This document shows, piece after piece, positions 1-16,836 of a stretch of 64,000 bases of DNA. This DNA is from Chloroflexota bacterium (lineage in GTDB: Bacteria > Chloroflexota > Anaerolineae > UBA1429). Within the stretch, counting starts at the first letter, position 1; each line of letters starts with the position of its first letter. Below the pieces are notes generated by a model. It did no database searches. It saw only the letters and a list, made by a program, of their open reading frames with translations, and had not been told where the DNA came from. The stretch spans positions 62,001 to 126,000 of the forward strand of contig JAIOAW010000002.1 of the NCBI GenBank assembly GCA_019873625.1, in the 5' to 3' direction. The translations under genes and the position numbers were made by a program.

Positions 1-921
1 CAAAAGGAGCGACCCCACCGCGCCCACGGCGACCAAAAGCGCGGCGCCTGCGACGATGGGCGCCTCGCGTTGGTGCGAGGAGCGGTGGAGCGCCAGGCCG
101 GCGAGGAAGGCGCCTAGCCCGCCGGCGAAGGGGACGACCGCCGCCCACGTCGCTGCCGCGCCCAAGCCTAGCCCCTGCACCTCCAGGAGGTAAGTGGGCG
201 CCCAAAGGCTAAGCGCATCTTTGATGATGCCCGAAAAGAAGCAGATGATCAGCCCCCAGCGCACTGCGGGTATGCCCAAAGTGCGGAAGGCCTCCTTCGG
301 GTTCCACGGGCCGGATTCCCGGCTCCGAAGGGTGAGCCGGCCGCGGGGGAAGGCGGGATCATCCTGCGCGTTGAGTACCCAGAGGAGCGTTCCGCCCAAG
401 AGGAGCGCCCCCGGCACCCAAAAGGCCGCGCGCCATCCCCAAGCGCTCACCAAACGGCCGGCGAGGACCCACGAAACCGCGTGCCCTGCCACGTAACAGG
501 GGGCAAAGAGCGCGGAGACGAGGCCGCGCTTTTCCGCCGGGAACCAACGGGAGAGCGTCTTGACGAGCGGCCCCCAGCCCATAGATTGCACCCAGCCGTT
601 CAGCCCCCAGATGAAGGCCATTGCCCCAAGGGCACCCAGAGAGCCGAAGAGGAGATTGAGAAAGGCCGAAAGGAACATCCCCAGCCCGACAAAAGCCCGT
701 GCCGAGATGCGATCCCCTAGGGACCCGTTCACCAATTGGCCGATGGCGTAACTCCAATACAGGGCGCTGCCGATGAGGCCCACAGTGGCCTTGCTCCAGC
801 CGAACTGGGCCTGGATGGCCGGCATAGCCACGGCGAGGTTCACGCGCCCCAGGTAAAAGGCAGCATAGGTAACCCAGCACAGGGCAAAAAGGCGCCAACG
901 GGGTGCGAGGCGTTCGTTCAT
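1..921 (-). CDS. MFS transporter, OPA (GlpT/UhpT)-like, truncated by the window edge
   Basis: My reverse-strand translation from ATG at 921: MNERLAPRWRLFALCWVTYAAFYLGRVNLAVAMPAIQAQFGWSKATVGLIGSALYWSYAIGQLVNGSLGDRIS... The frame checked open at several points and runs to position 1. It is absent from the ORF track because it has no stop inside the window. Confidence 0.85.
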   Translation of the reverse strand, partial: MNERLAPRWRLFALCWVTYAAFYLGRVNLAVAMPAIQAQFGWSKATVGLIGSALYWSYAIGQLVNGSLGDRISARAFVGLGMFLSAFLNLLFGSLGALGAMAFIWGLNGWVQSMGWGPLVKTLSRWFPAEKRGLVSALFAPCYVAGHAVSWVLAGRLVSAWGWRAAFWVPGALLLGGTLLWVLNAQDDPAFPRGRLTLRSRESGPWNPKEAFRTLGIPAVRWGLIICFFSGIIKDALSLWAPTYLLEVQGLGLGAAATWAAVVPFAGGLGAFLAGLALHRSSHQREAPIVAGAALLVAVGAVGSLLL

Positions 922-1697
922 CAGGGCCGAGCAGGGCGCAACATCGTGATCCCCTCACGCACGCCACGGATGACGGTGAGGCTCACGAATTCGGGGATGG
1001 CCGCGCGGATCTCCTCGTCGCCATAGTTCATCGCCACCAAGCGCCGAATCTCATCGCACTGGCGTTCCAAAAGCGCGTTTTGGGCCTCAACGCGGGGCGT
1101 ATTCACATAGAGGGAAAAGGCCCCTTCACGGAGGGCTTGGGCTAGTTCCCATTCGGTGTGCACGGGGCGGTGGAGGTCCAGGGCATACATCCCCAAGGAA
1201 TCAATATGGTGCCCATCGGAGGCCGCGGTGACGGGCAAGCCCAACTTGAGTGCAAGGGCGCGCCCCCGCCGCGAGGTATGCTCGTAGATGTTGCTCGACA
1301 TAATCTCAATGCCGTCTACCGGGTGCTCCTCCAGCCAGGAAGGCACGTCGGGGTGGTAGCGATAGGGGTGGGCGAGCACCACGGCGCCCCCGCGCGTATG
1401 CACTTCGCGCACTAGGCGTGCCCCATCGCGGCGCAGGGCGATGAGGGCCTCATCTACGGGGCCGTAGACGAGGAGATCCTCCCCCTCGGCCGTGGTAAAC
1501 TCGGCGCCGCGCAGGAGCACAATCTGCGGGTAACGCGCTTGAAGGCTGGCCAGTTCCTCGGCTGGCCAGAAAACGTTGTGCTCGGTCAAGACGAGGGCCT
1601 CTAACCCCTCGGCGATGGCACGCTCGACCATCTCCTCGGGCGTGGAACGGCCGCACTCGGAATAACGGCTGGTGTGAACGTGGATATCTATGCGCAT
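921..1697 (-). CDS. PHP-domain metal-dependent phosphoesterase
   Basis: The ORF 921..1820 has an internal start MRIDIHVHTSRYSECG; DIHVHT plus later H/D motifs (LAHPYRYHPD, SDGHH) are typical of PHP. The stop overlaps the MFS start (TGATG). Confidence 0.8.
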   Translation of the reverse strand: MRIDIHVHTSRYSECGRSTPEEMVERAIAEGLEALVLTEHNVFWPAEELASLQARYPQIVLLRGAEFTTAEGEDLLVYGPVDEALIALRRDGARLVREVHTRGGAVVLAHPYRYHPDVPSWLEEHPVDGIEIMSSNIYEHTSRRGRALALKLGLPVTAASDGHHIDSLGMYALDLHRPVHTEWELAQALREGAFSLYVNTPRVEAQNALLERQCDEIRRLVAMNYGDEEIRAAIPEFVSLTVIRGVREGITMLRPARP

Positions 1698-1731
1698 GTG
1701 ATGCCTAGCCTCATCGTAAAATGCACGCCCT

Positions 1732-1760
1732 ATTATAGGCGGGGCAAACCGTATGGCGAA
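1732..1760 (-). promoter_or_regulatory. Putative promoter of the PHP gene
   Basis: Reverse strand TTCGCC-N17-TATAAT, 35 nt upstream of ATG at 1697. Confidence 0.4.
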
Positions 1761-1821
1761 ATGGCAGCCCTTGGGCGAAATAGGCCAAATCGCCGCGAAA
1801 CCTTCTGACAGCCCCTTCAAG

Positions 1822-1850
1822 ATGACAACGCACCGCGAATACGATACAAT
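1822..1850 (+). promoter_or_regulatory. Putative promoter of the UDP-sugar dehydrogenase gene
   Basis: ATGACA-N17-TACAAT upstream of ATG at 1888. Confidence 0.5.
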
Positions 1851-1887
1851 ACGGCGCGTTGATCACCTTGACGAGGCGAGGGAAGGG

Positions 1888-3192
1888 ATGAGCCGCATTT
1901 GCATCATCGGGGCCGGGTACGTCGGGCTGGTAACGGGCGTTTGCTTTGCCGATTTGGGGCATAATGTCATCTGCCTGGATGTTGACGAGGCCAAGATCGA
2001 GAACCTCAAACGGGGCATCCCGCCCATCTACGAACCGGGGCTGGAGGAGATGCTCAACCGCAACCTGCAAGCGGGGCGGTTGCGATTCACCACCTCATAT
2101 CCGGAGGCCTTGGCGGATGCAGAGTTTGCGTTTATCGCCGTGGGCACGCCTTCCGGCGTGGATGGCGAGGCCGATTTGCGGTACGTGCGCGCCGTGGTAG
2201 AGGCCATCGCCGACACGGTGGATCACCCTATCTGCATCGTGAACAAATCCACAGTGCCCGTGGGCACGGGAGACTGGGTGGCCGATGTCATCCGCAAACG
2301 CCGCGCGGGGCGCGATTTGGAGTTTGCCGTCGTCTCCAACCCCGAATTCCTGCGCGAAGGCTCGGCCATCAACGATTTTATGAACCCCGACCGCATCGTG
2401 CTGGGGTCGCTCGACCGCGAGGCGGCCAACCAGGTGGCCCAACTCTATCTGAGCCTGCGCTGCCCCATTATGATCACCGACCTGCGCACGGCCGAGATGA
2501 TCAAGTACGCCTCTAACGCTTTTTTGGCGACGCGCATCTCCTTCATCAACGAGATCGCCAATATCTGCGAAGAACTGGGCGCCGACGTTCAAGAGGTGGC
2601 CGCCGGGATGGGCTACGACAAGCGCATCGGGCGCGCCTTTTTGGATGCCGGCTTGGGCTGGGGCGGCAGTTGCTTCCCCAAAGACGTCAAAGCCCTGGCG
2701 CATATGGCCGTGTTGCACGGCACGCACCCCCAGTTGTTGCAAGCCGTGATGGATATCAACCGCAATCAGCGGCGGCGCGTGGTGATGCGGCTGCGCAAGG
2801 AATTGGGCACCCTCAACGATAGGACGATCGGCATTTTGGGGCTTTCGTTCAAACCGAATACGGACGATCTCCGCGAGGCGCCGGCTTTGGAGGTGATCCA
2901 CCTCTTGCAGGTGGAGGGGGCGATCATCCGCGCCTACGATCCGGCGGCAATGAAAGAGGCGGCGCGCATTTTGCACAACGTCACCCTGTGTGAAACGCCC
3001 TACCAGGTGGCCGAGGGAGCCGATGCGCTCGTCCTGTGCACGGAGTGGAACGAGTTCAAATCGCTCGATTTCGAGCGCATCAAGCGGGCTATGCGCACGC
3101 CCCTCATTATGGATGGCCGCAACCTGTGGGACCCCAAACGTCTGCGGGCGCTGGGCTTTACCTACCTGGGCGTGGGCCGGGGCACGGGATAA
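1888..3192 (+). CDS. UDP-glucose/GDP-mannose dehydrogenase family protein
   Basis: [34 protein letters not shown] (Rossmann), [14 protein letters not shown] catalytic Cys motif, [16 protein letters not shown]. Confidence 0.95.
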
Positions 3193-3222
3193 GGGCGTTC
3201 AAAACCTTCCGAACGCCCTTTG
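3191..3222 (+). terminator. Rho-independent terminator-like hairpin after the UDP-sugar dehydrogenase gene
   Basis: Perfect 10-bp inverted repeat aagggcgttc / gaacgccctt with a 10-nt loop. Confidence 0.6.
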
Positions 3223-3230
3223 GGGCAGAT

Positions 3231-3259
3231 TTGACAGGATTTCAGAACTGTCTTATAAT
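3231..3259 (+). promoter_or_regulatory. Full-consensus sigma70-type promoter
   Basis: TTGACA (3231-3236)-N17-TATAAT (3254-3259), a perfect match to -35/-10 consensus and spacing. Confidence 0.9.
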
Positions 3260-3264
3260 ATCTT

Positions 3265-3476
3265 TGCTTGCTTGGAACGGTCATCAGCAAGCGCTGAGAA
3301 ATCCCCACGGATCTCGAGTTTCTGCCCCATAGTTCCTTCCTGAACGCTGGACGTAGGACTCTCCCCGAACAGGGCGCTCTCAGGTGGGGCGTTTTTTGCC
3401 CAGGCATCCTCAGGGCCTGCGCAGAGGGCGCGCCCACAAACCCTGACCGTACTCAACAACAAAAGGAAGTGAACGA
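3265..3476 (+). ncRNA. Structured 5' leader or candidate small RNA upstream of the RRM gene
   Basis: About 210 nt non-coding between a consensus promoter and ATG at 3477. Contains hairpin GAGaaATCC-ccac-GGATCTC (from 3296), closing helix gcccca (3324-3329)/tggggc (3385-3390) followed by GTTTTTT, and a second hairpin tcaggg (3410-3415)/ccctga (3441-3446). Confidence 0.5.
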
Positions 3477-3788
3477 ATGGGTACGAAACTGTATGTCGGC
3501 AATCTCTCTTATCAAACCACCTCCGCCCAGTTAGAGGCGTTGTTCTCTCAGGCGGGCGAAGTGACCGAGGCGACCGTCGTCGAAGATCGGATGACGGGCC
3601 GCTCGCGGGGCTTTGGCTTCGTGGAAATGGCCAACAAGGCGGATGCCGCCGCGGCCATCGAGCGCTTTAACGGCTCTCAGATGGACGGGCGCACGCTGAA
3701 CGTGGCGGAGGCTCGCCCCCGCGAGGACCGCGCCCCGCGCAGCGAACCCCGCAGCAACAATACTACCCGCGGAAGTCGCCGCTGGTAA
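3477..3788 (+). CDS. RRM-domain RNA-binding protein
   Basis: KLYVGNLSYQTT (RNP2) and RSRGFGFVEM (RNP1); short protein with charged tail, as in cyanobacterial-type Rbp proteins. Confidence 0.95.
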   Translation: MGTKLYVGNLSYQTTSAQLEALFSQAGEVTEATVVEDRMTGRSRGFGFVEMANKADAAAAIERFNGSQMDGRTLNVAEARPREDRAPRSEPRSNNTTRGSRRW

Positions 3789-3850
3789 GCCGCAAGGCAA
3801 AACATCCCCTTGGGGGCATCGCTGAGGAGATGCCTCTCCGGTGAGGAATC

Positions 3851-3891
3851 AAACCGTCCGCTGGGAAGCACCCAGCGGACGGTTTCTTTTG
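3851..3891 (+). terminator. Rho-independent terminator of the RRM gene
   Basis: Perfect 15-bp stem aaaccgtccgctggg/cccagcggacggttt, loop aagca, followed by ctttt. Confidence 0.85.
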
Positions 3892-3956
3892 CCCAGGCCC
3901 ACGGCCTGGGGTTATTCCCGAAGCCCTCCCTCCAGGAGGACGTAATCGCTCCCTCA

Positions 3957-4226
3957 TCACCCGGGGGTTTCGAGGTAGCGCAGGTCTTGGCTCTGCGCTA
4001 CGGCCGCGCGCACTGCATCTTTGATGGCAAAATAGGAGCGGCTGCTCTCGACCTCGCCAGAGATGCCCAATTCGGCCATCAGGCGCTGAACGAGGGCGCC
4101 GATGGTTACGCCCAGGCGCTGGTTGGGCGGCTGCTCGGCCAAAAGGGCCTGCACGGCCTCGCGGACGCGTTCCGGCGTAACCTTTTGGAGCGCTTCGCGC
4201 CAAGGTTCCACGCTCTTATCGCTCAT
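3957..4226 (-). CDS. Small hypothetical protein (paralog A of a pair)
   Basis: MSDKSVEPWREALQKVTPERVREAVQALLAEQ...AIKDAVRAAVAQSQDLRYLETPG; RBS-like ggagggaagag before ATG. Confidence 0.6.
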   Translation of the reverse strand: MSDKSVEPWREALQKVTPERVREAVQALLAEQPPNQRLGVTIGALVQRLMAELGISGEVESSRSYFAIKDAVRAAVAQSQDLRYLETPG

Positions 4227-4260
4227 CTCTTCCCTCCAGGAAGAGGATATCCGGGCTTCA

Positions 4261-4509
4261 TCAAGCGTCTCCGGGCACATAGCGCAACCCCGGTATCTGG
4301 GCTACGCGCTCCTGCACGGCGCGCCGCAGGGCGAGTTCGGCGCGCCCGCCTTCCGGCCCTTCGGGCAGGGGGCGCCCCTCGAGAAGCGCCTCGAGCAGGG
4401 TGGGCCAGGCCACGCTGGGGCCGGCGCCTTCGTCTCGCGCCAGGCGGCGAACGAGCGCCGCGAGGCGCTCATCGGTCAGGTTTTTGAGGATGCTTTCGGT
4501 GCGTTCCAT
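4261..4509 (-). CDS. Small hypothetical protein (paralog B of a pair)
   Basis: MERTESILKNLTDERLAALVRRLARDEG...ALRRAVQERVAQIPGLRYVPGDA; alignable to the neighbouring ORF along most of its length. Confidence 0.6.
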   Translation of the reverse strand: MERTESILKNLTDERLAALVRRLARDEGAGPSVAWPTLLEALLEGRPLPEGPEGGRAELALRRAVQERVAQIPGLRYVPGDA

Positions 4510-4539
4510 AGGCTCTCCTTTGCCGAATGATGGGGCCGC

Positions 4540-6135
4540 TCACAGGAGGATGATGCTCGCGATGAGCCAGGCCGCCAGCAACACAAAGAGTACGGCCGTG
4601 GCCAGTTTGACGGCCGCCGCATGGCGGTTCATCCACTCGATTAACTGCTGAGAGGAGGTACCCCAATACACCGCCAGGAACACGACGATGAGCGGCAAGA
4701 TGAACATCACGTTATAGATGAGAAGGGCTAGGCTGGCCCGCGTGCGCCACTCCGGAATGCCCAGCATAAAGATCACGGTGGGCAAGTAGACCTGCCCCGT
4801 GCAGGCCAGTTCGACGATTGAGACGCCCAACCCCAACAGGAACGAACTGAACACAAAGCGCCGAGCGCCCGTACCCTCGCGGATAAGGCGTTTGCTCACG
4901 TTGCGCAGGCTCTCCGGCAGTTTGAGGGTCATATCGGCCAGGCGCCCCGCCTTGGCCTTGAAATAATCCATCACGCTGCCGTAGGCCAGCCCCAGGCAAA
5001 GGATCGCCGTCAGACCGTACACCCATTTGCCGATGGCCTGCAAGAAGGGCAGGGCGGCCAAGGCCCTCAAGAAGCCGAACCCCACACCCAAATAGGCCAA
5101 AAAGACCCCCGCGGTAAAGGCCCCTCCCGTGGCCAAGAGCGCCGCCCCTTGGCGCTTGCGGATGGAGAGGTAGGAGATGAGAAAGATCATCGTGGCAAAG
5201 GCGCAAGGGTTGACGCCATCCAGCAACCCGGCGCCTGCGATGGTCAAAAGGCCTAGGGAACGGAAGCGCTCGACGATGGTCTTTTCGGCCTCTGCCTTCT
5301 GAGATTCCCAGCCGGCCCAACTCTCGGGCAGGCCCGTTTCCAGGTAAGGGGCGATGAGCGCCTCGATTTCTCGCGCCCGCACCTGCGTACCCAGAAGGCA
5401 TTGATGATCCACAAACAGGCTGGGCGCCGTCAGGTGTTTGGCCTCCGGCACGTTGGCCTGGATGCAGAGGTACTGGTTCAAGGTGGCATCTTTTTGCACG
5501 TCAAAGCGGTGGATCTTGACCTGGGGGTACTTGGCGGCGATGTATTCCAGGTCATGCTCGGAGCGTTCGCATTCGTCGCAGCCCGGTTTGGAAAAGTAGG
5601 CGATGTGGATTTCCGGCAGGGCCTCGCCCGACGCGGCTTGGCCGGCCGGCGGGGCGGGCGTGGGCGAGCCACCTTCCGGTGTGTTTATGCCCCCTTGGGC
5701 AAGGGACTCTTCGATGAGGCCCGGCAGGCGGGCGCGGATCTCCTCCGGGCCGATGAGCACGTCCTCGCCGAGGATGATCGCCGGAATGCTCGTAACCACC
5801 ACGCCCCGCGCGTCTTCCATATCCATCAGGCGCTCCAGGCCATCCGCCGTGGAGAGGTCGTATTCCTCTATCTCGATTTGCGTGCCGTATTGGGCGAGGA
5901 GCGGTTCGATGACCTCGCGATGAATCTCCTGACAGGAGGTGCACCGTGGGTCGGAAAAGTAGAGGAAGCGCACCACCCCCTCAGCCCTGGTGGGCCTCGC
6001 CGCAAGGCCCACCAGGATGAGAACCATCGCGATGCCGTAGAGAACCCTCCGCCACAGAGAGCGATCTGTTAGCCAAGACCAGTTTCGAAATGGCATAGTC
6101 TCCAATGTAGTACGTAAGGGATGCTGATGCTCCAA
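4540..6135 (-). CDS. Double thioredoxin-like domain fused to a CcdA/DsbD-like transmembrane domain
   Basis: Two CxxC domains (YFSDPRCTSCQEIH; YFSKPGCDECERSE) followed by a multi-helix CcdA-like region (AGLLDGVNPCAFATMIFLISYLS...ACTGQVYLPTVIF). Confidence 0.85.
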   Translation of the reverse strand: MEHQHPLRTTLETMPFRNWSWLTDRSLWRRVLYGIAMVLILVGLAARPTRAEGVVRFLYFSDPRCTSCQEIHREVIEPLLAQYGTQIEIEEYDLSTADGLERLMDMEDARGVVVTSIPAIILGEDVLIGPEEIRARLPGLIEESLAQGGINTPEGGSPTPAPPAGQAASGEALPEIHIAYFSKPGCDECERSEHDLEYIAAKYPQVKIHRFDVQKDATLNQYLCIQANVPEAKHLTAPSLFVDHQCLLGTQVRAREIEALIAPYLETGLPESWAGWESQKAEAEKTIVERFRSLGLLTIAGAGLLDGVNPCAFATMIFLISYLSIRKRQGAALLATGGAFTAGVFLAYLGVGFGFLRALAALPFLQAIGKWVYGLTAILCLGLAYGSVMDYFKAKAGRLADMTLKLPESLRNVSKRLIREGTGARRFVFSSFLLGLGVSIVELACTGQVYLPTVIFMLGIPEWRTRASLALLIYNVMFILPLIVVFLAVYWGTSSQQLIEWMNRHAAAVKLATAVLFVLLAAWLIASIILL

Positions 6136-6141
6136 ATATCC

Positions 6142-8985
6142 CTAGCGCATAACACGGCGCATAACCCATTTGGTAATCTCCGCCGCGATGGACGGGACGA
6201 GCAAAAGCGGCAGGACGATTTCCCACTGCGCCCAGCCCAAAGGCGCCGTGCCAAAGACGGGCTGGAGGAACGGAACATACACGACGGCCACCAGGAGCAG
6301 GAACGACGTAGCCACGGCATAGAACATATAGGGGTTGCTCAAAAAGCCGAGTTCAAAGATCGAACGCCGCTCCGAGCGCGAGGTAAAGGCGCGGAGCAGT
6401 TCCGAAAAGGAGAGCGTGACGAAGGCCATCGTGTGGGGCATCGCCTCCAAATGGCCGAACCGGCGCAGCCCGATGAGATAAGCCGTCAGCACTGCTGCGG
6501 TGATGGCTACCGTTTGTACGGCAATGCCCACCCACATAGACCGGTTGATGACGGGTTCTTTGGGCGGGCGAGGGGGGCGATCCATAATATCCGGCTCGCC
6601 CTTTTCCATCCCCAAGGCCAGGGCCGGCGCGCCGTCGGTGATGAGGTTCAACCATAGGAGTTGGATGGCATTCAAGGGCGAAGCGAGGTTGGCCATAATG
6701 GCGAGAAAGATCACCATAATCTCGGCGATGTTGCAGGAGAGGAGGTAATATACGAACTTGCGGATGTTCGAATAGATGACGCGCCCCTGCTCCACCGCGG
6801 CGACGATGCTGGCATAGTTATCGTCCGTCAGGACCATATCGGAGGCCTCTTTGGCCACATCAGTGCCCGTGATGCCCATAGCCACGCCGATATCGGCCTT
6901 CTTCAACGCGGGGGCGTCATTCACGCCATCTCCCGTCATGGCCACGATATCGCCATTGCGTTGGAGGGCCTCGACGATGCGCAGTTTGTGCTCTGGGGAG
7001 ACGCGGGCATAGACGAGGGTGCGGCGCACCTCTTCATCGAGTTCGGCATCGCTCATCGCCTGGAGTTCCGCGCCGGACCGCACGGGGTCGTCGGGGCCGA
7101 TGAGGCCGATTTGCTGGGCGATGGCACGCGCCGTCAGGGCGTAATCTCCGGTGATCATCATCGTGCGGATGCCGGCCCGCTTGGCCGTCTCCATCGCCGG
7201 CTTGACCTCCGGCCGCGGCGGGTCAATCATCCCCACCAGGCCCACAAAGGTAAAGTCGCGCTCGATCTCTTCTGGCTCGCTGCCGTTGAACCCCTCGGGC
7301 GCCAAGCGGTAAGCCAACCCCAAGACGCGCAAAGCCTGGGCGGTGAGGGCCTGGTTGGCCTGAAGGATGCGGGCGCGCAGGTCGTCCGTCAGGGGGAGGC
7401 GCTCGCCGCGCATCGTCTGGTAATGGGTGCACAGGTCGAGGAGGACGTCTGGCGCGCCTTTGCTCACGGCCACCTCCCAATCTTTGACGGAGGCGTCATA
7501 GAAGGGGCTGACGTCTTCCGGGTCGGGCTGGAGGATGCGGTGCACCGTGGTCATCCGCTTGCGGCGGGAGTCGAAGGGCACCTCACCCACGCGGGGGTAG
7601 GCCACCTCGAGCCTCTCGCGCGTGGCGCCCGCCTTGGCGGCGGCCACGAGGAGGGCCGTCTCGGTGGGGTCGCCCACCAGACGGTAGCCCCGGGCGCTAT
7701 CGCCATCCGGCTCGATGACGGCGTCGTTGGCGAGGGTGGCGATCCAGAGGGCGATGGAGGCGGCGGGGTAGTCTCTCAGGCGGATGGGCTGACCGTCGAG
7801 GCGGAAGGCCTCGCCATTTTGGGCGTCAGCCACTTCGATGGTCGTGCCGTCGGCCCAGATGCGCGTGACGGTCATCACGTTCTGGGTGAGGGTGCCCGTC
7901 TTATCGGAGCAGATGATGGTGGTGGAGCCGAGGGTCTCCACCGAGGCCAGGCGGCGGATGAGGGCGTGGCGGCGCACCATCTCGCGCATCCCCAGGGCCA
8001 GGGTGATGGTAACTACGGCGGGCAGGCCCTCGGGCACGGCGGCCACGGCTAGGCTCACGGCGATGATGAACATATCCGTAACGTATTTGCCAAAGTGGGC
8101 CTTCTCCGAGGCGGGGATATGGATGACGCCCTCGATGAAGACGATGGCGCAGATGACCAAGGCGCCGATGCCCAACACCTTGCCGAGTTGGTCGAGGCGC
8201 CGCTGGAGGGGGGTCGTCTCCTGCTCGACGCGCTGGAGCATCGTGGCGATGAGGCCGATTTGGGTGTGCATCCCCGTGCTCGTGACGATGCCCAGGCCGC
8301 GGCCGTAACTCACCACGGTGCCCATAAAGGCCGTATTGTGGCGGTCGCCCAAGGAGGCATCCTGGCGCAGGATGAGGTGCGCATCCTTTTCTACGGGCAC
8401 CGATTCTCCCGTCAGCGCGGCCTCTTCGATGCGCAGGTTGACCGTCTCGATGAGGCGCAAATCTGCGGGGACATAATTCCCCGCCGTGAGCACGACGAGG
8501 TCGCCGGGCACCAACTCGCGGGCCGGCACGGTGAGGTGGCGGCCGCCGCGGATGACCTGGGCCTCTGGCGCGGCGAGTTTTTTGAGGTTTTCCAGGGCGG
8601 CCTCGGCGCGGCCCTCTTGGATGAGGCCCAAGACGGCGTTGAGGATGACGATGGCGAGGATGGCCGCGCTCTCGATATAGTCTCCGAGGACGGCGGAGAT
8701 GACGGCGGCCACGATGAGGAGGATGACGATAAAGTTGTTGAACTGGTTCCAGAGGCGCTGCCAGAAACTGGGCCTTGGCGCCTCGGCGAGTTCGTTGGGG
8801 CCGTATTGGGCCAGGCGGCGGGCGGCCTCCTCGGGGCTTAGGCCCTCTTTGGGCGAGGTGCCGAAACGCGCGCAGATCTCCTCCACCGAAAAGGCGTGCC
8901 AGGCGATCTGTTCCGTTTCGGGCTGGGCGAACCCATTGTTCTCACGAGGCAACGGCGAAGCGGCGGTCATTTTCGAAACCTCCAT
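6142..8985 (-). CDS. Cation-transporting P-type ATPase, Ca2+/SERCA-like P2 type (copy 1)
   Basis: ICSDKTGTLTQN, TGES, MTGDGVNDAPALKKADIGVAMG, PEGLPA in M4, QLLWLNLITDGAPALALG in M6. Confidence 0.95.
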   Translation of the reverse strand: MEVSKMTAASPLPRENNGFAQPETEQIAWHAFSVEEICARFGTSPKEGLSPEEAARRLAQYGPNELAEAPRPSFWQRLWNQFNNFIVILLIVAAVISAVLGDYIESAAILAIVILNAVLGLIQEGRAEAALENLKKLAAPEAQVIRGGRHLTVPARELVPGDLVVLTAGNYVPADLRLIETVNLRIEEAALTGESVPVEKDAHLILRQDASLGDRHNTAFMGTVVSYGRGLGIVTSTGMHTQIGLIATMLQRVEQETTPLQRRLDQLGKVLGIGALVICAIVFIEGVIHIPASEKAHFGKYVTDMFIIAVSLAVAAVPEGLPAVVTITLALGMREMVRRHALIRRLASVETLGSTTIICSDKTGTLTQNVMTVTRIWADGTTIEVADAQNGEAFRLDGQPIRLRDYPAASIALWIATLANDAVIEPDGDSARGYRLVGDPTETALLVAAAKAGATRERLEVAYPRVGEVPFDSRRKRMTTVHRILQPDPEDVSPFYDASVKDWEVAVSKGAPDVLLDLCTHYQTMRGERLPLTDDLRARILQANQALTAQALRVLGLAYRLAPEGFNGSEPEEIERDFTFVGLVGMIDPPRPEVKPAMETAKRAGIRTMMITGDYALTARAIAQQIGLIGPDDPVRSGAELQAMSDAELDEEVRRTLVYARVSPEHKLRIVEALQRNGDIVAMTGDGVNDAPALKKADIGVAMGITGTDVAKEASDMVLTDDNYASIVAAVEQGRVIYSNIRKFVYYLLSCNIAEIMVIFLAIMANLASPLNAIQLLWLNLITDGAPALALGMEKGEPDIMDRPPRPPKEPVINRSMWVGIAVQTVAITAAVLTAYLIGLRRFGHLEAMPHTMAFVTLSFSELLRAFTSRSERRSIFELGFLSNPYMFYAVATSFLLLVAVVYVPFLQPVFGTAPLGWAQWEIVLPLLLVPSIAAEITKWVMRRVMR

Positions 8986-8998
8986 AGATTGGGATGGC

Positions 8999-9490
8999 TC
9001 AAAGCATCAGGCAGGGTACCGTGAGAAGTTTCGCTTCCGGCACATTAGCCTGGATATGGAAACAATAGTTCAGGGCGATGCTTTTTTCCGCATCAAAGCG
9101 GGGGATCTTGGCCTGAGGATATTGGACGGCGATGTATCCTAGATTATGCTCGGAACGCTCGTATTTGATGAATACGACTGGTACGGTTGTTGCCACCTCT
9201 TTATATGCTTCTTTGTTCACTAGGTGTTCAAGACCGCTGTCCGAGGAAAGGTAGAGTTTTTGGGCCTCGATCTGCACGCTGTATTGAGCAAGGAGCGGTT
9301 CGGTGACCTCGCGGTGCACTTGGGAAAAAGTGCACCGGAGGTCAGTAAAGAGATGCGCGCTTCCCCCGGTGCTGATGGGCACTGAGGCAAGGATTAGACA
9401 CGCCAAAAGCAAAACCTTTACAGTAGTTCGAATGATATAGGTGCTTGCCTTCGTTTGGACTATCACGGTTTCCCCATCAATCAAGCCCAT
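8999..9490 (-). pseudogene. Decayed, internally deleted copy of the thioredoxin/CcdA gene
   Basis: Aligns to the N-terminus of 4540..6135 (CTFSQVHREVTEPLLAQYSVQIEAQKLYLSSDSGLEHLVNKE vs CTSCQEIHREVIEPLLAQYGTQIEIEEYDLSTADGLERLMDME), then jumps to KYERSEHNLGYIAVQYPQAKIPRFDAEKSIALNYCFHIQANVPEAKLLT. Both CxxC motifs and the whole membrane domain are missing. Confidence 0.75.
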
Positions 9491-9494
9491 AGTT

Positions 9495-12323
9495 TCAGCG
9501 GTTCAGCAAGCGATGTCCTAGTTTGATCAATTCGGCCGTGATGGGGGGCACAAACAATAGCGGCAGAACGAATCTCCATTGTGCCCAACTGAGCGGCGCG
9601 GTGTTGAAAATAGGTTGCAAGAAGGGTATGTAGATGACCGCAGCCAGCAAAACAGCAGAGGCTGCTACTGCGTAGAACATCGTTTTATTAGAAAAGAAGT
9701 CGATTTCAAAGATCGAGCGCCGTTCGGAACGCGTGGTAAAAGCGCGCAGCAACTCTGAAAAAGCAAGTGTGGAAAAGGCCATTGTGTTTGCCATCATGGG
9801 GATGTGCGCAAACTGACGTAGGCCGATTATATAGGCTGTCAACACGGCCGCAGTGTCGGCGATGGTTTGGATCCCAACACCGATCCACATAGACCGGTTG
9901 ATGACGGGTTCTTTGGGCGGGCGAGGGGGGCGATCCATAATATCCGGCTCGCCCTTTTCCATCCCCAAGGCCAGGGCCGGCGCGCCGTCGGAGATGAGGT
10001 TCAACCACAAGAGCTGGATGGCCGTAAGGGGCGAGGAAAGGTTGGCAAGGATCGCCGAAAAGATGATAAGTATCTCCGCTGTATTGCACGAAAGGAGAAA
10101 ATATACGAACTTGCGGATGTTCGAGTAGATGACGCGCCCCTGCTCCACCGCGGCGACGATGCTGGCATAGTTATCGTCCGTCAGGACCATATCGGAGGCC
10201 TCTTTGGCCACATCGGTGCCCGTGATGCCCATAGCCACGCCGATATCGGCCTTCTTCAACGCGGGGGCGTCATTCACGCCATCTCCCGTCATGGCCACGA
10301 TATCGCCATTGCGTTGGAGGGCCTCGACGATGCGCAGTTTGTGCTCTGGGGAGACGCGGGCATAGACGAGGGTGCGGCGCACCTCTTCATCGAGTTCGGC
10401 ATCGCTCATCGCCTGGAGTTCCGCGCCGGACCGCACGGGGTCGTCGGGGCCGATGAGGCCGATTTGCTGGGCGATGGCACGCGCCGTCAGGGCGTAATCT
10501 CCGGTGATCATCATCGTGCGGATGCCGGCCCGCTTGGCCGTCTCCATCGCCGGCTTGACCTCCGGCCGCGGCGGGTCAATCATCCCCACCAGGCCCACAA
10601 AGGTAAAGTCGCGCTCGATCTCTTCTGGCTCGCTGCCGTTGAACCCCTCGGGCGCCAAGCGGTAAGCCAACCCCAAGACGCGCAAAGCCTGGGCGGTGAG
10701 GGCCTGGTTGGCCTGAAGGATGCGGGCGCGCAGGTCGTCCGTCAGGGGGAGGCGCTCGCCGCGCATCGTCTGGTAATGGGTGCACAGGTCGAGGAGGACG
10801 TCTGGCGCGCCTTTGCTCACGGCCACCTCCCAATCTTTGACGGAGGCGTCATAGAAGGGGCTGACGTCTTCCGGGTCGGGCTGGAGGATGCGGTGCACCG
10901 TGGTCATCCGCTTGCGGCGGGAGTCGAAGGGCACCTCACCCACGCGGGGGTAGGCCACCTCGAGCCTCTCGCGCGTGGCGCCCGCCTTGGCGGCGGCCAC
11001 GAGGAGGGCCGTCTCGGTGGGGTCGCCCACCAGACGGTAGCCCCGGGCGCTATCGCCATCCGGCTCGATGACGGCGTCGTTGGCGAGGGTGGCGATCCAG
11101 AGGGCGATGGAGGCGGCGGGGTAGTCTCTCAGGCGGATGGGCTGACCGTCGAGGCGGAAGGCCTCGCCATTTTGGGCGTCAGCCACTTCGATGGTCGTGC
11201 CGTCGGCCCAGATGCGCGTGACGGTCATCACGTTCTGGGTGAGGGTGCCCGTCTTATCGGAGCAGATGATGGTGGTGGAGCCGAGGGTCTCCACCGAGGC
11301 CAGGCGGCGGATGAGGGCGTGGCGGCGCACCATCTCGCGCATCCCCAGGGCCAGGGTGATGGTAACTACGGCGGGCAGGCCCTCGGGCACGGCGGCCACG
11401 GCTAGGCTCACGGCGATGATGAACATATCCGTAACGTATTTGCCAAAGTGGGCCTTCTCCGAGGCGGGGATATGGATGACGCCCTCGATGAAGACGATGG
11501 CGCAGATGACCAAGGCGCCGATGCCCAACACCTTGCCGAGTTGGTCGAGGCGCCGCTGGAGGGGGGTCGTCTCCTGCTCGACGCGCTGGAGCATCGTGGC
11601 GATGAGGCCGATTTGGGTGTGCATCCCCGTGCTCGTGACGATGCCCAGGCCGCGGCCGTAACTCACCACGGTGCCCATAAAGGCCGTATTGTGGCGGTCG
11701 CCCAAGGAGGCATCCTGGCGCAGGATGAGGTGCGCATCCTTTTCTACGGGCACCGATTCTCCCGTCAGCGCGGCCTCTTCGATGCGCAGGTTGACCGTCT
11801 CGATGAGGCGCAAATCTGCGGGGACATAATTCCCCGCCGTGAGCACGACGAGGTCGCCGGGCACCAACTCGCGGGCCGGCACGGTGAGGTGGCGGCCGCC
11901 GCGGATGACCTGGGCCTCTGGCGCGGCGAGTTTTTTGAGGTTTTCCAGGGCGGCCTCGGCGCGGCCCTCTTGGATGAGGCCCAAGACGGCGTTGAGGATG
12001 ACGATGGCGAGGATGGCCGCGCTCTCGATATAGTCTCCGAGGACGGCGGAGATGACGGCGGCCACGATGAGGAGGATGACGATAAAGTTGTTGAACTGGT
12101 TCCAGAGGCGCTGCCAGAAACTGGGCCTTGGCGCCTCGGCGAGTTCGTTGGGGCCGTATTGGGCCAGGCGGCGGGCGGCCTCCTCGGGGCTTAGGCCCTC
12201 TTTGGGCGAGGTGCCGAAACGCGCGCAGATCTCCTCCACCGAAAAGGCGTGCCAGGCGATCTGTTCCGTTTCGGGCTGGGCGAACCCATTGTTCTCACGA
12301 GGCAACGGCGAAGCGGCGGTCAT
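9495..12323 (-). CDS. Cation-transporting P-type ATPase, Ca2+/SERCA-like P2 type (copy 2)
   Basis: Identical protein to copy 1 from MTAASPLPREN through VIYSNIRKFVY, then diverged in M5-M10; has all P-type motifs. Confidence 0.95.
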   Translation of the reverse strand: MTAASPLPRENNGFAQPETEQIAWHAFSVEEICARFGTSPKEGLSPEEAARRLAQYGPNELAEAPRPSFWQRLWNQFNNFIVILLIVAAVISAVLGDYIESAAILAIVILNAVLGLIQEGRAEAALENLKKLAAPEAQVIRGGRHLTVPARELVPGDLVVLTAGNYVPADLRLIETVNLRIEEAALTGESVPVEKDAHLILRQDASLGDRHNTAFMGTVVSYGRGLGIVTSTGMHTQIGLIATMLQRVEQETTPLQRRLDQLGKVLGIGALVICAIVFIEGVIHIPASEKAHFGKYVTDMFIIAVSLAVAAVPEGLPAVVTITLALGMREMVRRHALIRRLASVETLGSTTIICSDKTGTLTQNVMTVTRIWADGTTIEVADAQNGEAFRLDGQPIRLRDYPAASIALWIATLANDAVIEPDGDSARGYRLVGDPTETALLVAAAKAGATRERLEVAYPRVGEVPFDSRRKRMTTVHRILQPDPEDVSPFYDASVKDWEVAVSKGAPDVLLDLCTHYQTMRGERLPLTDDLRARILQANQALTAQALRVLGLAYRLAPEGFNGSEPEEIERDFTFVGLVGMIDPPRPEVKPAMETAKRAGIRTMMITGDYALTARAIAQQIGLIGPDDPVRSGAELQAMSDAELDEEVRRTLVYARVSPEHKLRIVEALQRNGDIVAMTGDGVNDAPALKKADIGVAMGITGTDVAKEASDMVLTDDNYASIVAAVEQGRVIYSNIRKFVYFLLSCNTAEILIIFSAILANLSSPLTAIQLLWLNLISDGAPALALGMEKGEPDIMDRPPRPPKEPVINRSMWIGVGIQTIADTAAVLTAYIIGLRQFAHIPMMANTMAFSTLAFSELLRAFTTRSERRSIFEIDFFSNKTMFYAVAASAVLLAAVIYIPFLQPIFNTAPLSWAQWRFVLPLLFVPPITAELIKLGHRLLNR

Positions 12324-12417
12324 TTTCGGAACCTCCTTATCGTGATAGAAATGGCCGAAACCGTTCGTCCTTACCTGTGCGTTCGACGCCGCGAACGCTC
12401 AAACGCCCATAACGCGG

Positions 12418-13257
12418 TTATGCCAAGCAGTAACACACGCCCACGACGCCCGGCCCCGTGTGGGCGCCCATCACCGGCGTGAATTCCGACTCAAAGAACT
12501 CGATGCAGTGAAATTCGCGCTGGATCCGCTCGCTCAAGATCGCCGCGTCTTCGGGAGCATCGGCGTGAGCCACCGCAGCGCGGATGGGCCGATCTCCCAC
12601 GGCCCGCTGCACTTGGGCGATGATCGTCTCTAGGGCGCGTTGCCGGTTGCGCGTGATGGCCACCGGCTGAACCTGCCCATTGCTCAGCGTGAGGATGGGC
12701 TGGACGTTCAAACGCGCCCCGAGGAGCGTCGCGGCCCTCCCGATGCGGCCGCCGCGCCGCAAGTGTTCCAAGGTCTCGAGCGCAAAGCACAGGCCAACGC
12801 GCTCTCGGCACGCTTCGGCCACCGCCACCACCTCGTCGAGCGAGGCACCACGGCGCGCCGCGCGGGCCGCCTCTAGGGCGATGAACCCTTCGGCCGTGGC
12901 GGCCGTCTGGGCGTCAATGATGCGCAGGGGCACCTTGACGGCCTCGGCAGCTTGGCGTGCCACGCGCACAGTGCTCGTCAGGCTCTCGGGCACCAAAATC
13001 GCCACGATGCCATCGGCCTCTTGGGCAGCGCGTTGAAAGGCCTCGACAAAGCGCCCGATAGTTGGGCTGGCCGTGGTGGGGTAGGTCGCCCGCGTGCGGA
13101 AGAGCCTGTAAAACTCTTGGGGCGTGATATCTTGCCCGTCGAGATAGGAGACGCCATCCCACACCAACTCGTAGGGGACGATGCGAATACCATATTCCTG
13201 GGCTACTGCCGGAGGAAGGCAGGCCGCGCTATCGGTGATGATGGCAACTTGGGGCAA
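12418..13257 (-). CDS. DegV family protein (fatty-acid binding fold)
   Basis: MPQVAIITDSAACLPPAVAQEYGIRIVPYELVWDGVSYLDGQDITPQEFYRLF...TTASPTIGRFVEAFQRA. Confidence 0.92.
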   Translation of the reverse strand: MPQVAIITDSAACLPPAVAQEYGIRIVPYELVWDGVSYLDGQDITPQEFYRLFRTRATYPTTASPTIGRFVEAFQRAAQEADGIVAILVPESLTSTVRVARQAAEAVKVPLRIIDAQTAATAEGFIALEAARAARRGASLDEVVAVAEACRERVGLCFALETLEHLRRGGRIGRAATLLGARLNVQPILTLSNGQVQPVAITRNRQRALETIIAQVQRAVGDRPIRAAVAHADAPEDAAILSERIQREFHCIEFFESEFTPVMGAHTGPGVVGVCYCLA

Positions 13258-13328
13258 AGGGCATCGTCCTCCCGCCTAAAATCGGGTAAGGGCCAGCCGG
13301 CGCCAAGGGCCTCCGGCACATCCATCTT

Positions 13329-13357
13329 GTTATAATCAAAACCGTTTACAGCGTCAA
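13329..13357 (-). promoter_or_regulatory. Putative degV promoter
   Basis: Reverse strand TTGACG-N17-TATAAC upstream of the DegV start. Confidence 0.6.
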
Positions 13358-13452: not shown

Positions 13453-15138
13453 ATGGGTGAACGTTGGGTTCTGCGGCGCAATCCTTCGCCGGCCTTTCTC
13501 CAAAAGGTGCCGGATATTCCCCCGCTGGTTGCCAAGGTACTTTACGCCCGCAAGTTTGATACGCCCTCAGCAGCGCGCGCCTTCCTCTTGGGCCGAGAGG
13601 CCCTTGGAGATCCTTTCGCTCTCCCCGATATGGCCCCCGCCGTGGCGTGCGTTCAGGAGGCCATTGCGCGCCAGGAGCGCATCGCCGTCTATGGGGATTT
13701 CGACGTGGATGGCATCACGGCGACAGCCCTTCTCGTCTCCGCCTTGGAGCATCTTGGCGCACAGGTTACGCCCTACATCCCCGACCGTTTTGAAGAGGGG
13801 TATGGCCTCAATACGGGTGCGTTAGAAGCCCTCCGCAGGGAGGGGGTGGGGTTGGTCATCACGGTGGATTGCGGCATCCGCTCGCCCGATGAGGCGCGCT
13901 ACGCTCGGGAGATTGGGCTGGACCTCATCATCACCGATCATCATACCCCGCCGGCCGAACTCCCAGCGGCCCTGGCCGTCATCAACCCCAAACGGGAAGA
14001 TAGCGCCTACCCCTTTGGCGAACTCGCCGGTGTGGGCGTGGCCTATCGGTTCGCGCAGGCCCTCTTTTCGGCCTTACCCGGGCATTCGCCCGATGACGTC
14101 GAGGAATGGCTTGACCTCGTGGCCTTGGGGACGGTGGCCGATGTCGTGCCCCTTTTGGGAGAGAACCGTTCCCTCGTGCGGGCCGGTTTGGAGCGCATCC
14201 GCCAAGGGATGCGGCCCGGCCTTTCCGCCTTGATGGATGCGGCAGGCGTGGAGGCCCTGACGCTCGGCGGGCAGGGCATCGCCTTTCGGCTCGCGCCTCG
14301 GCTCAACGCCACGGGTCGGTTGGAACATGCCTTGCTCAGTTACCGCTTGCTCACGGCGCGCTCCCTCCAAGAGGCCCTCTCGCTCGCTACCACCCTGAAC
14401 GATCTAAACCAAGAGCGGCAGAGGCTCCTCGAGGCGCAAGTGATGGAGGCCGAGGCGCACATAGACCCGGCCGAACCGTTCTTCTTTGTGGAAGGGGAAA
14501 TCTATCACGAGGGCATTGTGGGCCTGGTGGCCAGCCGCTTGGTGGAGGGCCATTACCGCCCCGCCTTTGTCATGCGCCGTGGGCCGGAATGGACGCGCGG
14601 CTCGGCACGCAGCGTGCAAGATTTTCATATCACCCGCGCTCTGGATGCCTGCGCCGATTTGCTCATCCGCTACGGGGGGCATGCCCAGGCGGCCGGGTTC
14701 ACCCTCCTCAGCCGAGATATTGCGCCCTTTCGCGAGCGCTTGCGGGCCTATTGCGCCCAGCATCTGAAAAAGGAACATCTCGAACGCGCCCGCTATGTAG
14801 ATGCCATCATCGGCCTAGAGGAACTCGACGCGGAGGGCGTCTATGGCCTGCGGGCGCTCGAGCCGTTCGGCGCCGGCAACCCCGAGCCGGCCCTCGCGGC
14901 CGTGGGGGTGGAGGTCATCTCGGTGCGGCCCTTTGGCGCGGAAGGCCAGCACGTCCGCCTCATCGTTCGCCAAGGCGACCGCTATGCGGAGGCGGTCGCC
15001 TTCCGCCAGCGCTCTTTTCTCGACGTGCTTCGCCTGGGCGCCCGCGTAGATCTCATCTTCTCGCCCGAAATCCGCGTTTGGCAGGGGCAAGAGACGCTCC
15101 AATTGGTCCTCTCCGCGGCCCGCCCCGCCTCGCGCTAG
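13453..15138 (+). CDS. recJ: Single-stranded-DNA-specific exonuclease RecJ
   Basis: DFDVDGITATALL, ITDHHTPP, YGGHAQAAGF (DHH/DHHA1), GLVASRLVE. Confidence 0.95.
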   Translation: MGERWVLRRNPSPAFLQKVPDIPPLVAKVLYARKFDTPSAARAFLLGREALGDPFALPDMAPAVACVQEAIARQERIAVYGDFDVDGITATALLVSALEHLGAQVTPYIPDRFEEGYGLNTGALEALRREGVGLVITVDCGIRSPDEARYAREIGLDLIITDHHTPPAELPAALAVINPKREDSAYPFGELAGVGVAYRFAQALFSALPGHSPDDVEEWLDLVALGTVADVVPLLGENRSLVRAGLERIRQGMRPGLSALMDAAGVEALTLGGQGIAFRLAPRLNATGRLEHALLSYRLLTARSLQEALSLATTLNDLNQERQRLLEAQVMEAEAHIDPAEPFFFVEGEIYHEGIVGLVASRLVEGHYRPAFVMRRGPEWTRGSARSVQDFHITRALDACADLLIRYGGHAQAAGFTLLSRDIAPFRERLRAYCAQHLKKEHLERARYVDAIIGLEELDAEGVYGLRALEPFGAGNPEPALAAVGVEVISVRPFGAEGQHVRLIVRQGDRYAEAVAFRQRSFLDVLRLGARVDLIFSPEIRVWQGQETLQLVLSAARPASR

Positions 15139-15221
15139 GCCGAAAGCGCTGAAATATCCTTCTTTTGGAATCCTCGAATCCTCCATCTGGTGGATACGTT
15201 GCCCGGTGCCCTATGGTATGA

Positions 15222-15236
15222 TGTGCACAAAGCACA
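15222..15236. promoter_or_regulatory. Inverted repeat TGTGC-N5-GCACA overlapping the putative GOGAT promoter
   Basis: tgtgc acaaa gcaca, abutting a TATGAT -10-like element (15217-15222); same architecture as the glnA upstream site. Confidence 0.5.
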
Positions 15237-15271
15237 ATCTACCTATTTCACCGTTGGAATCGGGCACCGAA

Positions 15272-15298
15272 GCCGCTCTCCAAAAGGAGCGGCGTTTT
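15272..15298 (+). terminator. Hairpin plus short T-run in the GOGAT operon leader (possible attenuator)
   Basis: gccgctc (15272-15278)/gagcggc (15287-15293) followed by gtttt, upstream of ATG at 15319. Confidence 0.45.
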
Positions 15299-15318
15299 GT
15301 ATCAAAGCGAGGTTTGGA

Positions 15319-16836
15319 ATGGCTCTCTCTTTGGCAACCTCTCAATTCATCATCGAGCGAGACGAGACCCGTTGTATTGCCTGCCAGGTGTGCGTTCGCC
15401 AGTGCGCCAACGACGTCCATTACTATGATGAGGAGAACGATCGCGTCCTATCGAACGATGCTTCCTGCGTGGGGTGCCATCGCTGTGTGACCCTGTGCCC
15501 CACCCGCGCGCTCACGGTGCGGCGCAACCCGTTAGAGTTCCGGCCCAACGCGAACTGGGCCGCCGAAACGCTGCGCAACATCTATAAGCAGGCCGAGACG
15601 GGCGGTATGCTCCTGACGGGGATGGGGTGCGACCAACCTTACCGGATTTATTGGGACCACATCGTGTTGAATGCCAGCCAGGTTACCAACCCCTCCATAG
15701 ATCCCCTCCGCGAGCCGATGGAACTGCGCACGTATTTGGGCGCCAAGCCTGAACGGCTCGCCCTGTGCGGTGGCGCCCAGCGGAATCCCGTGCTTGAGAC
15801 CGTCCTGGCGCCCCAATTACAACTTGAGGTGCCCGTGATGTTCTCGGCTATGTCCTATGGTTCCATCAGTTTCAATGCCTGCGCATCGCTCGCGCGCGCG
15901 GCGCAAGCGGCAGGAACCTATTACAATACGGGCGAAGGGGGGCTTCACCCCGCCCTGTACGAGTACGGCGCGAATACCATCGCCCAAGTGGCCTCGGGGC
16001 GGTTTGGCGTGCATCTGGGCTACCTCAACACGGCGGCCGCATTGGAGATTAAAATTGGCCAGGGGGCCAAACCGGGCATCGGCGGCCACTTGCCGGGCGA
16101 GAAAGTGAGCCTCGACATTTCGCGCACGCGGATGATCCCCGAAGGGGCCGATGCGATTTCGCCCGCGCCCCATCATGACATCTATTCCATCGAAGATTTG
16201 CGACAACTCATCTATGCGCTCAAAGAGGCCACGCACTATACCAAGCCGGTGAGCGTTAAAGTGGCGGCGGTGCACAACATTGCGCCCATCGTCAGTGGCA
16301 TCGTGCGCGCCGGGGCGGATATCGTCGCCATAGACGGTCTGCGCGGCGGGACGGGGGCGGCCCCCACGGTGGTGCGGAACAATGTGGGCATCCCCATCGA
16401 GTTGGCCCTTGCGGCGGTAGATCAGCGCCTTCGCGAAGAGGGCATCCGCCATCGCGCCTCGATTGTGGTGGCCGGCAGCATCCGTTCCAGCGCAGACGTC
16501 GTCAAGGCCATTGCCCTTGGGGCAGATGCTGTATACATCGCCACGGCGGCCTTGGTGGCTATGGGGTGCCACCTCTGTCAGAATTGTTACACGGGCAAGT
16601 GCAACTGGGGCATCGCCACCCAAGACCCGTACCTCACCAAGCGCTTGAACCCAGAAATCGGCTCGCGCAGGCTGGTGAACCTCCTGCGCGCTTGGTCTCT
16701 GGAAATCAAAGAGATGATGGGCGGTATGGGCGTGAACGCCATCGAAAGCCTGCGGGGCAACCGAGATCACCTCCGCGGCGTGGGGCTGAATCAAGTGGAG
16801 TTGGATACTTTGGGCATCCGCGCGGCCGGCCAATAG
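15319..16836 (+). CDS. Glutamate synthase FMN/central domain subunit with N-terminal 2x[4Fe-4S] (split, archaeal-type)
   Basis: CIACQVCVRQCANDV...CVGCHRCVTLCP; GQGAKPGIGGHLPGEKVS; DIVAIDGLRGGTGAAPTV; CHLCQNCYTGKCNWGIATQ. Confidence 0.93.
   Translation: MALSLATSQFIIERDETRCIACQVCVRQCANDVHYYDEENDRVLSNDASCVGCHRCVTLCPTRALTVRRNPLEFRPNANWAAETLRNIYKQAETGGMLLTGMGCDQPYRIYWDHIVLNASQVTNPSIDPLREPMELRTYLGAKPERLALCGGAQRNPVLETVLAPQLQLEVPVMFSAMSYGSISFNACASLARAAQAAGTYYNTGEGGLHPALYEYGANTIAQVASGRFGVHLGYLNTAAALEIKIGQGAKPGIGGHLPGEKVSLDISRTRMIPEGADAISPAPHHDIYSIEDLRQLIYALKEATHYTKPVSVKVAAVHNIAPIVSGIVRAGADIVAIDGLRGGTGAAPTVVRNNVGIPIELALAAVDQRLREEGIRHRASIVVAGSIRSSADVVKAIALGADAVYIATAALVAMGCHLCQNCYTGKCNWGIATQDPYLTKRLNPEIGSRRLVNLLRAWSLEIKEMMGGMGVNAIESLRGNRDHLRGVGLNQVELDTLGIRAAGQ

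Follow-up and report, generated by a model that had tools for sequence, protein, structure and literature searches.

The window, a 64,000-nucleotide stretch of DNA that corresponds to positions 62001-126000 of contig 2 of a 2.76-Mb draft genome (47 contigs, 97.6% complete), carries two P-type ATPase genes in tandem on its minus strand. In minus-strand order, a DegV gene (13257-12418) is followed by ATPase copy B (12323-9495), a short open reading frame (9490-8999), ATPase copy A (8985-6142) and a thioredoxin/CcdA-like gene (6135-4540). Copy B encodes an intact paralogue of 942 amino acids; copy A encodes 947 amino acids when read from 8985, or 942 when read from the ATG at 8970, the start that matches copy B. 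The genus was represented by one genome in all comparisons. Most of its closest named relatives belong to the Anaerolineae (Chloroflexota), where the host is presumably to be placed as well. Elsewhere in the window, a GC-rich short tandem repeat array with a 6/24-bp period was observed at 31374-31458.

Both ATPases match the Pfam families PF00690, PF00122, PF13246, PF00702 and PF00689, and their best solved relatives are Listeria LMCA1, human SPCA1 and SERCA. The motifs DKTGT (356), TGES (187) and GDGVNDAPALKKADIG (680) are found in both copies, as are PEGLP, SCNxAE, NLI(T/S)DG and FSELL. The phosphorylation, actuator and hinge motifs are kept in both, and so are the Ca ligands of M4, M5, M6 and M8, at positions that we take to correspond to those of SERCA, with one Thr-to-Ser change in M6 of copy B. 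A and B have the full architecture, catalytic motifs and Ca2+ ligands in common with LMCA1, SPCA1, PMR1 and SERCA; in the alignment with LMCA1, the latter has an Arg in M8 where both copies carry Glu. The NCBIfam PMR1-type model TIGR01522 gave 783 and 767 bits (cut-off 798) and the SERCA-type model TIGR01116 gave 676 and 668 bits (cut-off 703), while the PMCA-type model TIGR01517 passed (552 against a cut-off of 507) and yet scored below the PMR1- and SERCA-type models. Judged by sequence, A and B are predicted to be intact type II (SERCA/PMR1-like) Ca2+ P-type ATPases, which we file without a subtype because the PMR1- and SERCA-type scores lie just under the curated cut-offs. The pair would be expected to form two calcium pumps of very similar properties.

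A gene remnant between the two ATPases

The gene downstream of copy A (4540-6135, 531 amino acids) encodes two thioredoxin/glutaredoxin-like domains and a CcdA/ArsG-like membrane domain, with family matches that are weak and below curated cut-offs, and 71 of the 299 genomes studied in the class carry a homologue. The short reading frame between the ATPases (8999-9490) is a decayed and truncated 5' half of such a gene. In a blastp comparison it matched the intact gene (6135-4540) at 62% over 53 amino acids and at 42% over 86 amino acids, and the two are 73-75% alike at the DNA level. The remnant covers about residues 37-242, contains an internal deletion, lacks both CxxC motifs as well as the membrane domain, and ends at approximately residue 242 of 531, directly before the ribosome-binding site of copy A. 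Beyond the stop of copy B, its frame nevertheless stays open for 163 codons, which could reflect either recent decay or some leftover constraint.

Because the thioredoxin-like fragment is common to both units, the original duplication was wider than the ATPase, and the remnant marks the end of the duplicated unit. The simplest reading is that this unit ran from the ribosome-binding site of the ATPase into the thioredoxin-like gene, and that the upstream thioredoxin part was truncated at birth. Homologues from elsewhere match the remnant at only 28-45%, the local intact gene being closer to it than any homologue fetched, and none of the 15 stretches examined had a Ca-ATPase beside a thioredoxin/CcdA homologue. 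The unit and its duplication therefore appear to belong to the present lineage. Among the relatives examined, there was no case of an ATPase next to the thioredoxin-like gene or DegV, so synteny gives no date for the duplication.

A near-identical N-terminal block joined to a diverged tail

A first-pass annotation had described 6863-8975 and 10216-12328, at an offset of 3353 bp, as free of differences. This is exact base for base and, at 2113 bp, represents the longest exact run at that offset. The bounds given for the block were too narrow, since near-identity carries on to 6747, interrupted only by silent mismatches at 6862 and 6772, such that 2227 of 2229 positions are identical between the tract in copy A (6747-8975) and that in copy B (10100-12328). 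The proteins, which had been described as identical up to M5, are indeed the same through residue 741, the last before M5, and first differ at residue 742, where M5 starts. At the other end, the identical sequence ends 5 bp upstream of the ATG that the copies share; past this point, the one feature in which they can still be seen to match is the ribosome-binding site. The block thus goes as far as homology does. The assembly contains the block twice and has no orphan N-terminal half.

The value of dS between the copies (NG86), which the first-pass annotation had suggested comparing, changes abruptly along the gene. Codons 1-738 have a dN of 0 and a dS of 0.0036, while codons 739-942 have a dN of 0.20 and a dS of 1.26, near saturation; the step, from 0.004 to above 1, lies at codon 741. 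A simple recent duplication is rejected by the tail dS of more than 1. The nearest orthologues, from genomes G008 and G005, show no step and differ along the whole gene, and the third-position identity of the N-terminal block to its nearest orthologue is 47-58%. Constraint on the block, whether at the DNA or the amino-acid level, is ruled out because the orthologues vary freely at third positions there, and chance is excluded as a cause of the identity. Within the block, A and B are far closer to each other than to their orthologues at synonymous sites; the tract ends are sharp, and old divergence lies outside them.

The tails encoding M5-M10 extend over 6142-6746 in copy A and 9495-10099 in copy B. 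The claim that this part differs at many positions, synonymous sites included, is borne out by the dS of the tail, but the divergence is not uniform: an exact patch of 107 bp, absent from the first-pass annotation and running from the end of M6 through the L6/7 loop to the start of M7 (codons 779-813), is identical again in copy A (6532-6638) and copy B (9885-9991, the same offset of 3353 bp). Outside the patch, the tails share 64-74% of their nucleotides and 66-78% of their amino acids, and codons for the same amino acid are identical in 43 out of 107 cases (40%). Given this codon identity, the lack of any difference at the 31 degenerate codons of the patch has a probability of approximately 5e-13, and none of 20,000 permutations gave a run as long as that of the patch, in which 35 successive codons agree in amino acid and show no synonymous change.

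It had been proposed that the ion-pathway helices differ through selection or escape. Escape agrees with our results, and selection is unsupported: no sign of positive selection was seen in M5-M10, where dN/dS is about 0.16, the Ca ligands are kept and the tail contains a converted patch of its own. Divergence past the limit of recombination is sufficient to account for these observations. Our best reading is that the M5-M10 tail escaped conversion by divergence, an identity of about 65% being beyond easy pairing, and that special selection is unneeded.

We know of no ordinary process other than sequence exchange that gives 2.2 kb of identical synonymous sites beside saturated divergence, and it is from this juxtaposition that we infer gene conversion. 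The exchange might instead have been an unequal crossing-over within the N-terminal block, with expansion to three copies and subsequent contraction. Direct tandem repeats are prone to this and the same final order would result, but the main block would take two events and the isolated 107-bp patch a further exchange, and we regard it as unlikely.

Age of the duplication, direction of transfer and reliability of the assembly

A tree built from the tail pairs A with B (ultrafast bootstrap 96-97, also when the patch is removed) and groups them with G008 and G005; the branch of copy B is about twice as long as that of copy A. With this short tail, an AU test did not formally reject placements of B outside the A+B pair (p 0.15-0.22). 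Over codons 815-942, outside the patch, A and B have 66% amino-acid identity, compared with 67% between A and G008, which belongs to another genus. The tandem duplication is thus best read as dating from roughly the time at which this lineage and the nearest sampled genus separated. It is older than the tract, as the tails have diverged to genus level and the thioredoxin-like remnant to a like degree. The possibility that the N-terminal block came horizontally from a known relative was also considered and rejected, as no closer source was found and the head and the tail of A share the same nearest orthologues.

The tail of copy B could in principle have been acquired horizontally and have replaced the C-terminal portion of a gene that had been duplicated recently. 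Its GC3 of 0.653 is below that of all 73 coding chunks of the window, though 9% of 465 chunks in a wider sample are equally low, and the AU test leaves other placements open. However, no genome in the family is closer to the B tail than A's own tail is, the internal patch would require an extra event, and the adjoining remnant is also AT-shifted and has diverged to a similar extent (73-75% at the DNA level), as one old duplication predicts. Such a transfer seems to us improbable.

The GC3 of the patch (0.771) resembles that of the A tail (0.777) and not that of the B tail (0.633; tails as compared with the patch), which makes A the likely donor. The GC3 of the block is likewise far from that of B's AT-shifted tail. 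The sequences therefore point to conversion of A onto B as the most likely direction, with the tract at 10100-12328, which extends just past the ATG to the point where homology ends, as the probable recipient.

We consider it quite probable that A and B are an old duplicate pair in which the N-terminal three quarters or so were later copied between the genes, while the last quarter kept its old differences. In this model, a segment consisting of the Ca2+-ATPase and the first half of the downstream thioredoxin/CcdA-like gene would have been duplicated in tandem near the split from the nearest sampled relatives, the thioredoxin part of the upstream copy being cut at the duplication breakpoint and decaying thereafter (8999-9490). 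The two ATPases would then have diverged over their whole length until the direct repeats recombined by a RecA-type process in which codons 1-741 were copied, most likely from A to B, and a separate short tract was copied at the conserved M6-L6/7-M7 segment. The remaining M5-M10 region, at about 65% nucleotide identity, would have been too diverged to pair and would have kept the old differences. The mosaic with its sharp ends, the second patch, the remnant common to both units and the conserved motifs are seen directly; the direction, the timing, the RecA mechanism and the number of events (one or several) are inferred from them. The proposal of the first-pass annotation, an old duplication with recent homogenisation of the cytoplasmic/M1-M4 part, survives testing, since the tails are sisters and yet genus-level apart and the homogenised part carries no such age. 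The conversion was probably recent, though its date is in doubt, since small differences within the repeat may have been lost in the draft assembly.

The latter point concerns how exact the identity is. No 16S rRNA gene was found in the draft genome; missing 16S rRNA genes are common in short-read metagenome bins, and the assembly is probably a short-read one. The N-terminal blocks might thus be some 98-99% alike in the cell, with a short-read de Bruijn graph having collapsed them and one consensus having been written twice around a loop of block, unique sequence and block. Apart from the 47 contigs and the missing 16S rRNA gene, it speaks for such a collapse that no other exact repeat above 230 bp occurs in the approximately 460 kb of genome sampled, which gives no sign of long-read repeat resolution, and that both differences lie at most 116 bp from the tract end (p of about 0.003 if evenly spread), where k-mers from the unique flanks would preserve them. 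The shape of the graph can be enough to resolve a simple direct-repeat loop, even if no read spans it. On the other hand, the clustering is also compatible with two conversion tracts that overlap and differ in age, the 107-bp patch has unique sequence on either side and required no repeat resolution, and a collapse requires near identity beforehand, so homogenisation is needed anyway. We regard a collapse as a real possibility, if the less likely case, and one that qualifies conversion rather than competes with it: the mosaic would be real and its exactness would not. The true figure for the repeat could be closer to 98% than to 100% identity, and the mosaic does not depend on it.

A more radical assembly error, in which the true N-terminal half of B is diverged or the B tail comes from another strain and a chimera was built, appears very improbable. 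The assembly is a draft known from its contigs alone; nevertheless, both reading frames are open and in frame across the junction and have matching ribosome-binding sites, the remnant sits exactly between the copies, a diverged 2.2-kb stretch has its own k-mers and is not easily lost, and a genome that is 97.6% complete contains no orphan N-terminal half.

Base composition, other tandem pairs and known systems

GC3 falls from 0.865 in the block to 0.772 in the A tail, 0.653 in the B tail and 0.571 in the thioredoxin-like remnant. GC3 of the N-terminal part minus that of the C-terminal part is +0.09 in A and +0.21 in B, compared with -0.10 to +0.01 in 11 single-copy orthologues. At sites where two outgroups agree, third-position G/C was lost (S-to-W) at 9% in the block, 19% in the A tail (p 0.006) and 36% in the B tail. 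Against backgrounds drawn, as for the repeats, from about 460 kb of the genome, the GC3 of the block is above that of all 27 other genes of its length, while for the difference within the gene A comes no higher than third or fourth among 54 genes. GC-biased gene conversion has been proposed to be widespread in bacteria (PMC4450053). The GC-rich block hints at such a bias, and the chance composition of one gene fits as well. We offer only as a tentative and rather doubtful suggestion that the N-terminal part was homogenised repeatedly, with GC bias, over the whole history of the pair. If true, one gene would hold an internal control for this disputed process, its converted part being raised in GC and its tail not, and if the shift holds in relatives, such pairs would allow within-gene tests of GC-biased conversion in bacteria.

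Four other tandem arrays of type II ATPases were found in the class, namely pairs in G120, G035 and G245 and a triplet in G013. None of the three that were measured (G120, G035 and G013) contains a large homogenised block, so the mosaic is no general trait of this ATPase in the class. Divergence runs through the whole of the G120 and G035 pairs, and the members of the G245 pair have 60% and 47% identity to A. The triplet (G013:C94:1-14000, approximately 250-9340) shows exact blocks of 116 bp upstream of two copies and of 80 bp inside. Where its members are alike, the patches are small; one site is the P domain and the other the M6-M7 region, which is also that of the 107-bp patch. Such highly conserved stretches are the places where pairing would be expected to be possible. 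A class-wide functional need for identical cytoplasmic parts is unsupported, given that two pairs are diverged, the triplet is patchy and the G245 pair is unequal.

In the genome studied here, a tandem pair of ABC-type solute-binding protein genes (G000:C3:20001-40000, 11922-13355 and 13890-15356) is also mosaic. Its core of 230 bp is exact, nucleotide identity in neighbouring windows falls to as little as 71%, and third-position identity varies from 0.44 to 1.0 between windows. Partial homogenisation of tandem duplicates is thus not confined to the ATPase locus.

The ATPase pair is an unusually clean bacterial example of paralogues whose catalytic and membrane parts have separate histories. 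Whole-gene trees of such paralogues would mislead, and the locus also serves as a warning that long exact repeats in draft assemblies may conceal small differences.

Domain-limited conversion between neighbouring paralogues is already documented, and the ATPase pair is a well-marked further instance and a clear bacterial case. One close parallel is mtrA-1/mtrA-2 of methanogens, likewise prokaryotic operon-neighbour duplicates, in which gene conversion homogenised the non-membrane domain while the membrane part differs (PMC4632066). There, however, domain shuffling supplied the membrane part, and homogenisation recurred over a long lineage, whereas both parts of the ATPases derive from one gene and the pattern was seen in one genome only. 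Mammalian TLR1/TLR6 are also tandem paralogues in which one region is kept together by conversion while another diverges, with independent conversions in nine species (PMC2077338); their converted part lies towards the C-terminus, in contrast to the N-terminal tract and single instance described here. The HMA4 triplicate of Arabidopsis halleri is, like our pair, a tandem array of P-type ATPase genes, and its coding sequences have undergone ectopic gene conversion; these are plant P1B zinc/cadmium pumps studied with population data, and the abstract describes no domain-limited tract of such size (PMC3749932). In Mycobacterium tuberculosis, conversion tracts between duplicated PE/PPE genes, which are hard to see with short reads, were followed as microevolution via HiFi reads, whereas the ATPase pair comes from one draft genome (PMC12046097).
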